This document shows, piece by piece, positions 6,395 through 9,517 of a DNA stretch of 64,000 bases. The DNA comes from Gimibacter soli (lineage in GTDB: Bacteria; Pseudomonadota; Alphaproteobacteria; Sphingomonadales; Kordiimonadaceae), in assembly GCF_028463845.1 (NCBI RefSeq), contig NZ_CP116805.1, forward strand, positions 992,001-1,056,000, written 5' to 3'. The position numbers and the translations under genes are program-made. How positions within the stretch are numbered: the first letter of the stretch is position 1; the number at the start of each line of letters is the position of its first letter. The notes beneath the pieces are model-generated. The model ran no database searches, was not told the DNA's origin, and saw nothing but the letters and a program-made list of their open reading frames with translations.

Positions 6395-6637
6395 ATGGAA
6401 CTCACCGATCTTAAATCGGCAGTTGACGCTTATGCGGACGCCGCCGAAACCGGCCTCGCTGCGCTCGAAACGCGGCTTGGCCAGATTGAAACCAGACTGG
6501 CGCGCCCCGGCGCCGTGCCGGAGGTGAAAGCGGCAACCGAAGCCGCTACGGCGCACAAGACCGCCTTCTTCGACGGCTTCATCCGGAAGGGTGACGACGC
6601 AGACCTGAGGGCATTTATGGTAAGCTTCTGCTGCTGA
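6395..6637 (+). pseudogene. Major capsid protein, N-terminal remnant (truncated)
   Basis: The first ~74 codons resemble the N-terminal scaffold/delta domain of HK97/GTA major capsid proteins: ATG with a GAAGGA RBS, a coiled-coil stretch with LETRLGQIETRLARP, then AFFDGFIRKGDDADLRAF, which normally precedes the protease cleavage site and the capsid fold. After about base 6612 the sequence is no longer capsid-like. The frame ends at the TGA at 6635-6637 while a different frame encodes the tail protein. The whole capsid fold (usually ~300 residues) and the head-tail connector genes that should follow are missing, so no head could be built from this locus. Confidence 0.75.
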
Positions 6638-7011
6638 AGATCAGGAACGGCGCGACCTACGAGGCCGCAGGTGGTTTCCGCACCAACAGTTTCACCTTTT
6701 CGGGTGAGACAATTGACGTGACTTCGAAGGATTCGGGTGGTTACCGCGCACTGATGGCAGGCGGCACCCGGGCACTTTCCACATCCGGTTCCGGCGTTTT
6801 CGTGTCAGACGATATCGTCAAGATGCTCAATACCAAAATCGCTGCCGGCGAGCTTGTTGACTGCGAACTCGTTGTGCCTGGCCTTGGCAGCTACAGCGGC
6901 ATGTTCGCCATCAAATCGCTGGAAATGAGCGGCGAACATAACGGGGAGGTTACCTATTCAATCAGCCTCGACAGCGCCGGTGTCGTTGCATTCACAGCGG
7001 AGGCTGCGTGA
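6619..7011 (+). pseudogene. Major tail (tube) protein lacking its N-terminus
   Basis: From 6619 the frame encodes GKLLLLKIRNG, then a typical TP901-1/GTA gp9-like tail tube protein: TFSGETIDVTSKDSGGYRAL, VSDDIVKML, and a C-terminal MSGEHNGEVTYSISLDSAG. The first few residues and the start codon are absent because the frame is fused, one base out of register, to the capsid remnant. The first possible start is the GTG at 6718, which would remove about 33 conserved residues. The stop (7009-7011) overlaps the next ATG. It is probably not translated into a working tube subunit unless the ribosome changes frame near 6619-6637. Confidence 0.75.
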
Positions 7012-7394
7012 TGGCGCGGCAGATTTCCGGCGAAGTGAGCCTGAAGGTCGGGCGGCAGGTAAGGCGCTTGCGGCTTGAGATCGGCGGTATTCTGGACCTT
7101 GAAGATCATTTCGATATGGGTTTGGTGCCGCTCTTGACCACCCGTCTGCCGGAGTGCCGCCTTGGTGATCTGGCGGCGCTCCTTGTTGCCATGACGGGCG
7201 GCGCGCCAGCGGATGAAGGCGCCCGCCGGACGGCAGCAGCTGACATCCATGAAGCGGGTATTGCGACAGCCGCAAAAGCCATTGCACGATGTCTCGAGCT
7301 TACTTTTTCGGGAAGCGAATGCTCGCCAGTGGTTGAGGAGAGCGTCGGAAAAAAGCCGGTACGGGGCCGGAGAGCACCATCACACCCGACATGA
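7011..7394 (+). CDS. Tail assembly chaperone, GTA gp10-like (Phage_TAC_11 type), G product
   Basis: The 127-residue protein starts at the ATG at 7011, coupled (TGATG) to the tail tube remnant. The N-terminal part (SGEVSLKVGRQVRRLRLEIGG...LEDHF) matches the gp10 / TAC_11 chaperone family, which coats the tape measure during tail assembly. Near its 3' end (7349-7355) lies the slippery heptamer A_AAA_AAG in the correct register. After it the zero frame has only 12 more codons before the TGA at 7392-7394. A -1 shift at the heptamer would give a 194-residue G-T product ending at 7594. Confidence 0.75.
   Translation: MARQISGEVSLKVGRQVRRLRLEIGGILDLEDHFDMGLVPLLTTRLPECRLGDLAALLVAMTGGAPADEGARRTAAADIHEAGIATAAKAIARCLELTFSGSECSPVVEESVGKKPVRGRRAPSHPT
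7349..7355 (+). promoter_or_regulatory. Programmed -1 ribosomal frameshift site (A_AAA_AAG)
   Basis: The zero-frame codons are GGA AAA AAG, giving the optimal bacterial slippery heptamer A_AAA_AAG as in E. coli dnaX. An SD-like AGGAG (7336-7340) lies 8 bases upstream, the arrangement that stimulates shifting in dnaX. A short GC-rich CCGG-N7-CCGG hairpin can form just downstream. After a -1 slip the reading frame runs straight, without a stop, into the 67-residue chaperone domain at 7391-7594. Tail chaperone G/GT frameshifting is well established in siphophages; its use here is inferred. Confidence 0.7.
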
Positions 7395-7594
7395 TGCTGG
7401 CTATGGGCTATCTTGGCTGGTCCCCTGATGTGTTCTTCTCTGCGACACTGCCCGAGCTTCTATACGCCATTGCCGGTTGGCAAAGAGCGCGGGGAATAGG
7501 GCTGGGTGCAGGATGTCAGATCCGCGCGCAGCCATCCCCTTTGACGCAAGCGGAGCTAGCGGCCCTGATCGCTGGCGCGGGTTCCGGGGTTTAG
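7391..7594 (+). CDS. Tail assembly chaperone T domain, gp10.1-like (Phage_TAC_6 type)
   Basis: The frame encodes MGYLGWSPDVFFSATLPELL and then an Ala-rich helix with QAELAALI. This is the pattern of the short GTA gp10.1 / TAC_6 proteins, where W, P and the F-W-x-A-T-P-E-L-like core are conserved. The ATG at 7391 overlaps the stop of the preceding gene (ATGA) but has no convincing SD near it. The frame is open back to the slippery heptamer at 7349, so the domain is probably made as the C-terminal extension of the chaperone by -1 frameshifting. Independent initiation at 7391 remains possible. Confidence 0.7.
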   Translation: MMLAMGYLGWSPDVFFSATLPELLYAIAGWQRARGIGLGAGCQIRAQPSPLTQAELAALIAGAGSGV

Positions 7595-7597
7595 AGG

Positions 7598-7966
7598 CTA
7601 TTCGTCGCGATTGGCACGCAGGCCGGAGGCACTTGTGCGGGTGGGCGCGCCAAGGATGGGCTCGCGGCGGCCGGGCTGGGGTTGCGCCGTTGCTTCTTCA
7701 GCAAAGGCTGCGGGTTGATTGCGCGGCGCTTCAGGCCGTTGTGGCAGGGTGGCGCCGGGCTGTTGGTGGCGGCGTCCTTCGAGGGCTTCACGCAAGGCTG
7801 CGATCTCATCGACGAGGGCCGTCATTTCTGACGAAACTTTTTCAAGGTGTTTCTTCAGGCCGAAGATGGCGAACGGAGCGAATGCCCAGAAGACAGCCGC
7901 CATGATCAGAACAAAAACAGCGATCCCCATGCCGGTTTCGCCAATCAGATTTTCGAGAGTTGCCAC
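7598..7966 (-). CDS. Small single-pass membrane protein with coiled coil (phage cargo gene?)
   Basis: A 122-residue protein read against the phage operon. It starts at GTG (7966) with an AGGAG RBS 6-7 bases upstream. One hydrophobic helix (about residues 12-36, GIAVFVLIMAAVFWAFAPFA) is followed by a charged coiled-coil stretch (about 38-65) and a Pro/Gln/Arg-rich tail. The architecture resembles phage-shock PspB-like or spanin-like proteins, but no family is recognised. It is convergent with the chaperone gene and probably follows the lipoprotein gene at 8057-8674 in transcription. Confidence 0.55.
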   Translation of the reverse strand: MATLENLIGETGMGIAVFVLIMAAVFWAFAPFAIFGLKKHLEKVSSEMTALVDEIAALREALEGRRHQQPGATLPQRPEAPRNQPAAFAEEATAQPQPGRREPILGAPTRTSASGLRANRDE

Positions 7967-8056: not shown

Positions 8057-8674
8057 TTAGTTGGCAGGTGTGTTCCGATGCTGTGCAAGCAGCATCTGGA
8101 AGCTTTCGAAAAAGCCTGCAGGGATGTCGAAATTCTTTGTACCACTGCGCCCTGCGATCTGGATTGAGAGGCCCGTGCCGCCAAGGCGGGCAAGATCGTC
8201 TTCGGTGAGCTTCAGGGCCACATCCTCATTGACTGAGCATTGGATAAGATTCCGGCCACAGGCTTGAATCTCGGCTTCAGTACATTTGCCGCCGTCGCGA
8301 GCCGTGCATGAAACGGCATCTCGGCTGAGGACTTGTAGCGGCAGTTCAGCGCCGTTCACGTAGGCCCGATCAAAATAGTTCCAGTTGTCGCTCCAGAGGA
8401 TGAAATAGAGCTGCATATAGTCCCGCCGTGCCGCTGCATCGGTTTGGCCGCGATCAGCACGCAGAAAATATCGATCATAGTTGCCGAAGCCGTTCGAATA
8501 AATGATCGCACTTTTTAGATGCGTGGTTTGCTGATGTGCATCGAATTCCACGGAAGAATGCTTGAGGACGAGCGCAGGGTCCGTCGCCGCGCGCTCGGCA
8601 ACATACTCACCTCGTGCCATGCAGCCAGCCAGACAGCCCGCGACAAGGGCGGTGAGAAACAAGCGGAACGGCAT
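8057..8674 (-). CDS. Lipoprotein of unknown function inserted in the tail module
   Basis: A 205-residue protein with a lipoprotein signal peptide: MPFRLFLTALVAGCLAGC, lipobox LAGC, mature Cys at 18. The ATG at 8674 is preferred over the one at 8701 because a GGGGAGA RBS precedes it. The mature part has four further Cys (CTARDGGKCTEAEIQACGRNLIQC region), which could form disulfides in the periplasm. No family is recognised. Lying reversed between tail chaperone and tape measure, it looks like a moron expressed from the lysogen or domesticated element. Confidence 0.6.
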   Translation of the reverse strand: MPFRLFLTALVAGCLAGCMARGEYVAERAATDPALVLKHSSVEFDAHQQTTHLKSAIIYSNGFGNYDRYFLRADRGQTDAAARRDYMQLYFILWSDNWNYFDRAYVNGAELPLQVLSRDAVSCTARDGGKCTEAEIQACGRNLIQCSVNEDVALKLTEDDLARLGGTGLSIQIAGRSGTKNFDIPAGFFESFQMLLAQHRNTPAN

Positions 8675-8791
8675 CAGCGTCTCCCCTACAGCAATATGCA
8701 ATCCTGAATAGTGTTAGCGGTGGACTTCCCGCCATTCAAGAAAAAAGAACATAGAGCGAACACATGTCGCCATCAGAACGAGGACGAGATC

Positions 8792-9517
8792 ATGAATGAC
8801 AGCATCGAAATTGGTGCATTTGGGCAGACCATTGCCGAAATGCTGGAGAACGGCTTTGTGACCCGAGAGCTTGAGAAAGCAGCGCGTGTGCTGGCAGAGG
8901 CAAGTGCCGTTTTTTCGACCCTTGCCCGAAGTCTCAGTGGGGGCGCGTCATCGGCTATCGCGGAACATAAGGCGCGTGGCAGCAACCAGTCCGGCACCGG
9001 AACGCCGGATGACGCCGCACAGGAGCAGCCGAAAAAGGAAGCATCCACCCGGTCCACCGAGAAGGGGCTGCTTGAGATCAAACTGAACGTGCTGGAACTG
9101 ATTGATGACCTGCAGGCGGCATTCCGGAAGCTCGGTACGTCTGTTCTGGAAACACTGGTGCAACCGGTCAATCAGGCAATCTCGACGCTCGCGTCCAAGG
9201 CCTTCGACAGGCTTCTGCAGGCAATTCTTCCGGGCTTTTTTGGATTCGGCAAAGCCGGTGGCGGCCGGCTGCAGCCCGGCACACCGACGCTGGTTGGCGA
9301 GCGCGGGCCGGAACTTGTTGTGGCCCACCGTCCGGCAACCGTCATAAATGCCGCCGACACACGCGGGTCCATTGGACCGGGTGTGACTGTGCAACAGACG
9401 CTGAATTTCGACCTCGTACCGGCGCCGACGATTGGCGCGATGATCGAGAACGCCATGCCCGCCATTGTGGAGGCATCGAAAATGGCGGTGCTTTCCTCCC
9501 TGCGGCGCGGAGCGTGA
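8792..9517 (+). CDS. Short tail tape-measure-like protein (GTA gp11 type)
   Basis: A 241-residue protein starting at ATG 8792 (GAGGACGAG upstream); earlier starts add a basic stretch without support. It is helix-rich up to about residue 150. It then has the glycine-rich, conserved tail of short tape measure proteins, GRLQPGTPTLVGERGPELVV (about 163-182), followed by a short beta segment. The length is similar to GTA tape measures, which set a short tail. It restarts the plus-strand tail module after the reversed insertion. Confidence 0.75.
   Translation: MNDSIEIGAFGQTIAEMLENGFVTRELEKAARVLAEASAVFSTLARSLSGGASSAIAEHKARGSNQSGTGTPDDAAQEQPKKEASTRSTEKGLLEIKLNVLELIDDLQAAFRKLGTSVLETLVQPVNQAISTLASKAFDRLLQAILPGFFGFGKAGGGRLQPGTPTLVGERGPELVVAHRPATVINAADTRGSIGPGVTVQQTLNFDLVPAPTIGAMIENAMPAIVEASKMAVLSSLRRGA

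Follow-up and report, generated by a model that had tools for sequence, protein, structure and literature searches.

A predicted −1 ribosomal frameshift joins the tail chaperone genes gp10 and gp10.1 of a gene transfer agent-like element in Gimibacter soli

Introduction

How does a gene transfer agent (GTA)-like element produce the second of its two tail chaperone domains, when the two are encoded in different frames? GTA tail chaperone genes are currently annotated as two separate genes. We addressed this question for a 64,000-nucleotide stretch of the Gimibacter soli chromosome (contig NZ_CP116805.1, positions 992,001 to 1,056,000; "the window"), in which a gp10-like gene with a Phage_TAC_11 domain is followed by a gp10.1-like frame with a Phage_TAC_6 domain. 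An earlier reading made from the letters of this DNA alone (the sequence-only reading) had proposed that a programmed −1 frameshift joins the two. Judged from the sequences of the locus and its relatives, the pair is very probably a tail assembly chaperone of the phage lambda G/GT type that is expressed by −1 programmed ribosomal frameshifting.

Slip site and predicted fusion

The gp10-like gene lies at 7011-7394 on the plus strand, as do the other features of the pair, and its zero-frame product of 127 residues ends at TGA 7392-7394. In this frame, the codons GGA AAA AAG at 7347-7355 place the slippery heptamer A_AAA_AAG (7349-7355) in the phase that would permit a tandem slip of tRNA-Lys to AAA AAA. 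A Shine-Dalgarno (SD)-like AGGAG at 7336-7340 precedes the heptamer with an 8-nt spacer (7341-7348); the corresponding element in a genus mate is GAGGAG. The −1 frame is uninterrupted from 7337 to a stop at 7592-7594 and runs into TAC_6, so a slip would add the −1 frame extension (7355-7594, 79 codons plus stop) to the first 115 residues of gp10 and yield a predicted fusion of 194 residues (7011-7594). The heptamer and its phase, the AGGAG and its distance, and the stop-free frame with its 194-residue product had all been described in the sequence-only reading, and each was borne out to the base.

Both domains were recovered with Pfam. The gp10 product matched Phage_TAC_11 (PF11836; E value of 3.3e-8; 33.9 bits against a gathering score of 27.8), the single occurrence of this domain in the genome, and the −1 frame product matched Phage_TAC_6 (PF09550; positions 7391-7474; E value of 2.8e-5; 24.9 bits against a gathering score of 23.4). 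Since the A6G string is frequent in the genome (284 matches, 155 forward and 129 reverse), the evidence for a slip site lies in its phase, place, and conservation and not in the string itself.

Conservation of the slip site

Homologues were drawn from whole genomes, named genomes, and viral contigs, and for each the gp10 stop, the TAC_6 frame, the open −1 stretch, and any in-phase heptamer were read by script. Since gp10 of the window, used by itself as the query, picked up no relative among the viral contigs, gp9 alignments took its place; the first of these was too diverse to search with. The TAC_6 Pfam model missed the window's own copy in the whole-genome search, and absence by that model therefore means little.

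Among the 23 Kordiimonadaceae TAC_11/TAC_6 pairs that have TAC_6 in the −1 frame, 22 carried an in-phase slippery heptamer, although this and the following counts cover related sequences and are uncorrected for relatedness, which lessens their weight in favor of frameshifting. Nineteen of the heptamers were GGGAAAG, two were AAAAAAG (the window and a genus mate, L030), and one locus (L069) carried both GGGAAAG and AAAAAAA; G_GGA_AAG is the usual form in the family and A_AAA_AAG that of the genus Pseudokordiimonas. Among distinct related viral contigs, 64 of 67 had a heptamer (GGGAAAC, GGGAAAG, AAAAAAG, a single AAAAAAA, or a single GGGAAAA). Both phase and place were selective: heptamers of the form XXXAAA[AGC] occupied 23 of 484 in-phase positions in the Kordiimonadaceae overlap, compared with 2 of 462 and 0 of 484 in the other phases and 1 of 2,140 in the gp10 body. 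The glycine codon of the slip site was GGA in 22 of 22 Kordiimonadaceae cases, against 17 of 210 (8%) glycine codons of the gp10 body, and in 52 of 52 cases in the viral contigs, against 133 of 680 (20%). In 43 of the 64 viral contigs the heptamer lay within 2 codons of the upstream −1 stop, leaving almost no other place to shift.

Across these relatives the slippery site is conserved and the second gene has no conserved ribosome binding site. The proposed frameshift is thus supported for Kordiimonadaceae and the viral contigs, but it does not extend to the GTAs of Rhodobacterales that resemble the Rhodobacter capsulatus GTA (RcGTA), which lack the heptamer.

Two family members fell outside the pattern: one (L035, genome G006) matches TAC_11/TAC_6 poorly and lacks the heptamer, and in the other (L071, genome G005) TAC_6 is in the +1 frame.

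Stimulators, tRNA, and selection

Predicted pairing to the anti-SD sequence upstream of the heptamer was stronger than in the gp10 body, both in viral contigs (mean of −6.65 versus −2.47 kcal/mol) and in Kordiimonadaceae (−5.3 versus −2.93 kcal/mol). The only tRNA-Lys among the 41 tRNA matches in the genome, a list that is incomplete since it lacks tRNA-Ile, was tRNA-Lys(UUU). Possession of tRNA-Lys(UUU) alone is the condition under which slipping on AAG occurs in E. coli.

The window was compared with Pseudokordiimonas caeni, the nearest named genome and a member of the same genus; synonymous differences in the pair amount to about 0.63-0.69 per site. The ratio of nonsynonymous to synonymous substitution rates (dN/dS) was 0.061 over gp10 as far as the heptamer. 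In the −1 frame, the full stretch gave 0.172 and the TAC_6 part beyond the gp10 stop gave 0.125. By this measure, both frames are under purifying selection. The nine bases GGAAAAAAG are unchanged between the two. A dN/dS value for the protease from the same comparison was an alignment artefact and was disregarded.

We infer slippage, its rate, and the roles of both products from what the sequences contain: a conserved site in the right phase, a −1 frame that is open, a TAC_6 that in most relatives has no usable start, and a fusion that occurs naturally (the latter two are described below). Most ribosomes would stop at the TGA at 7392 and release gp10. The others would pause on GGA-AAA-AAG while AGGAG, 8 nt upstream, is paired to 16S rRNA; with tRNA-Lys in both the P and the A site, they would move back by one base (from AAA AAG to AAA AAA) and continue to 7594 to produce the gp10-TAC_6 fusion. 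If the roles are those known from lambda, gp10 would coat a short tape measure protein, and gp9, the tail tube protein, would be recruited by the TAC_6 part of the fusion.

Several observations weigh against this model. The SD signal in Kordiimonadaceae is modest, with 5 of 22 sites in the best tenth. A search for downstream stimulatory RNA structure gave, for the window, a fold weaker than its shuffles (z score of +1.18) and, for Kordiimonadaceae, no such structure (mean of −0.73). Moreover, the element is damaged, making its function in this genome doubtful, and an ATGATG overlaps the gp10 stop in the window, so coupled initiation of TAC_6 is possible. The last two points each underlie a different explanation of the site, and we consider them in turn.

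A damaged element

The pair is set in a GTA-like head-tail cluster, with a gp9-like tail tube gene directly upstream of gp10 and large tail genes further downstream. A tape-measure-like gene at 8711-9517 (268 amino acids; a weak match to tape measure proteins) follows the pair, which is thus placed between tail tube and tape-measure-like genes, as expected for G/GT-type chaperones. The gp9-like gene (Phage_tail_2, PF06199, E value of 4e-32; 6604-7011, plus strand) has lost its start codon. Relative to P. caeni, a 4.65-kb deletion, whose junction at 6612/6616 of the window corresponds to 4075/8723 of the P. caeni locus (L098), removed the gp9 start codon together with most of the capsid gene and the genes that lay between them. 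At 6395-7011, an N-terminal capsid fragment now reads out of frame into gp9. P. caeni retains the deleted region with a capsid-sized open reading frame (ORF), while no Phage_capsid match was found anywhere in the G. soli genome. A complete RcGTA-like head-tail cluster is not present here, since the major capsid protein gene has been lost.

Between gp10.1 and the tape-measure-like gene, two minus-strand ORFs (7598-7966 and 8057-8701) gave no Pfam match; P. caeni has minus-strand ORFs of similar size in the corresponding position (L098, 9705-10811).

With most of the capsid gene and the gp9 start deleted, the slip site may have lost its importance in G. soli. It could be a relic, with frameshifting used in the ancestor and in the genus mate while the pair goes unused in a decaying element here. 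We give this explanation a substantial chance, though somewhat below even; it agrees with frameshifting as to the origin of the site, and our confidences in the two overlap. Against disuse, gp10 and TAC_6 are both still open and the pair is under purifying selection, but much of the divergence between the window and P. caeni, perhaps most, may predate the deletion, so the site may no longer work here. A headless, tail-like role is conceivable for such an element, but its gp9 has no normal start codon.

Alternative routes to TAC_6

Alternatively, TAC_6 could be made as a separate protein by re-initiation at the ATGATG (7391-7396), through ATGA coupling to the gp10 stop, as sequence suggests for many Rhodobacterales GTAs. 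Two ATGs, at 7391 and 7394, are indeed in the TAC_6 frame, and a start at −1 or +2 is seen in many relatives that lack the heptamer. However, no SD is within reach of these ATGs (the nearest GGAG is 18 nt upstream), and only 11 and 10 residues separate them from the conserved proline of the core. In TAC_6 genes that start independently, this distance is about 20 residues. A start here would shorten the usual N-terminal stretch of the domain by about 10 residues, which the independently started homologues keep. Most Kordiimonadaceae have neither these ATGs nor another usable start. Indeed, among the heptamer-type pairs in which the TAC_6 core was found (n = 83), only 20 had any start at least 15 residues before the core and 2 had one with an SD; as far as such start signals can be read, TAC_6 has no usable start in most heptamer-bearing pairs. 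Re-initiation also leaves the conserved GGA-AAG codons unexplained. We consider it unlikely, and the ATGATG is more likely a pair of internal methionine codons.

Very little favors slippage of RNA polymerase, instead of the ribosome, on the six A residues at 7349-7354. Six A residues are short for transcriptional slippage, and we rejected this explanation because relatives carry GGGAAAG or GGGAAAC at the site and not homopolymers. Least credible of all is a heptamer that arose by chance where two ordinary genes overlap: common as A6G is in this genome, chance does not account for phase, position, and codon conserved across Kordiimonadaceae and viral contigs.

Other junction types

We also compared junctions across a tree of gp9 plus gp10. 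Junction kinds were clustered on this tree, yet the junction switched between slip type and own start at least 17 times; "own start" here denotes the lack of a heptamer plus a possible in-frame start codon, initiation itself being only predicted. Among named genomes, those of Rhodobacterales had own-start pairs in all but one case, the exception being of an A_AAC_CCT type, and those of Hyphomicrobiales had C_CCT_TTN, A_AAC_CCT, or own-start pairs. An Emcibacter had the XXX_AAA type.

A_AAC_CCT was found at the gp10 end, often just before TGA, in nine genomic loci and two phages, and from it the −1 frame runs on as KP[LFY]... into FPW and the TAC_6 core. Asn-Pro near the gp10 end was encoded as AAC CCT in 13 of 19 cases, while CCT made up 2 of 39 proline codons in the same gp10 bodies. 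In five genomes, however, the T also serves a TTG that overlaps the stop, which offers a rival use for it. A_AAC_CCT is thus a possible, non-canonical slip site. C_CCT_TTN occurred in phase near the gp10 end of nine loci and gives Pro-Phe in both frames near the FPW start of the TAC_6 core; most of these loci have nearby start codons inside the core.

We tentatively suggest, at rather less than even confidence, that frameshifting may be the older route to a TAC_11/TAC_6 fusion. It would still be at work in GTA-like elements of Alphaproteobacteria, on slip sites of at least three kinds (XXX_AAA, C_CCT_TTN, and the non-canonical A_AAC_CCT in Hyphomicrobiales) and would have been replaced by separate initiation in lineages such as the Rhodobacterales GTAs. 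If so, the chaperone ratio would have been part of how phages became GTAs.

Significance and comparison with known systems

If the fusion is a working product, knockouts and expression of g10/g10.1 homologues must respect it. In the tailocin rhizoviticin, activity was reduced or lost on deletion of each of four genes, one of them annotated GTA-gp10 (PMC10811719). Kordiimonadaceae offer a natural comparison of frameshifting and independently initiating versions of one pair, including in short-tailed GTAs, where control of tail length by the chaperone ratio is least understood. The heptamer, its phase, and the GGA codon together provide a concrete marker for re-annotating related phages: in nine phage records, the pair (or its single-ORF counterpart) was annotated without any frameshift join. 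The mechanism is of a known kind. Its use in the GTA TAC_11/TAC_6 pair appears to be undescribed in the open-access literature, where a search of open-licence papers found no account of frameshifting for TAC_11/TAC_6 or g10/g10.1; the search was confined to such papers, and novelty is unproven.

The usual Kordiimonadaceae heptamer, G_GGA_AAG, is that of the lambda G/GT genes. The pair studied here differs from lambda G/GT in its Pfam families (TAC_11/TAC_6), in the A_AAA_AAG of this genus, and in its short tape-measure-like protein. With its A_AAA_AAG and upstream SD-like element, the site resembles that of E. coli dnaX, where the spacer between SD and heptamer is about 10 nt and so longer than that in the window. 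Unlike dnaX, the window has no downstream stem-loop signal, and its slip would yield a fusion, whereas that in dnaX yields a truncated product.

For Paenibacillus larvae phages, an AAAAAAG frameshift was predicted in the tail assembly genes (PMC6003738). The heptamer is the same, a related major tail protein is encoded upstream, and that prediction likewise came from sequence, but those phages are distant, have a longer downstream gene, and infect a Gram-positive host. The RcGTA-type g10/g10.1 genes of Rhodobacterales (R. capsulatus itself was outside the loci compared) are a homologous TAC_11/TAC_6 pair in the same gene order. They differ in having no XXX_AAA heptamer and in placing the second gene at a stop-start overlap or in another frame.

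At the level of structure, gp10 was unmatched in PHROGs, a sequence search against solved structures gave chance matches only, and comparison with the PDB (Foldseek, VIA-align) gave nothing convincing (best Z score of 3.5). Against predicted viral structures, the predicted gp10 fold (mean predicted local distance difference test score of 86) matched a tail assembly chaperone (E value of 4e-4) and gp16 of Rhodobacter phage RcapNL (E value of 0.0098). The latter (L242, 2414-2986), annotated as a hypothetical protein, has TAC_11 and TAC_6 in one chain, as predicted for the fusion here, but encodes them in a single ORF with no frameshift, indicating that a TAC_11-TAC_6 fusion is a natural arrangement.
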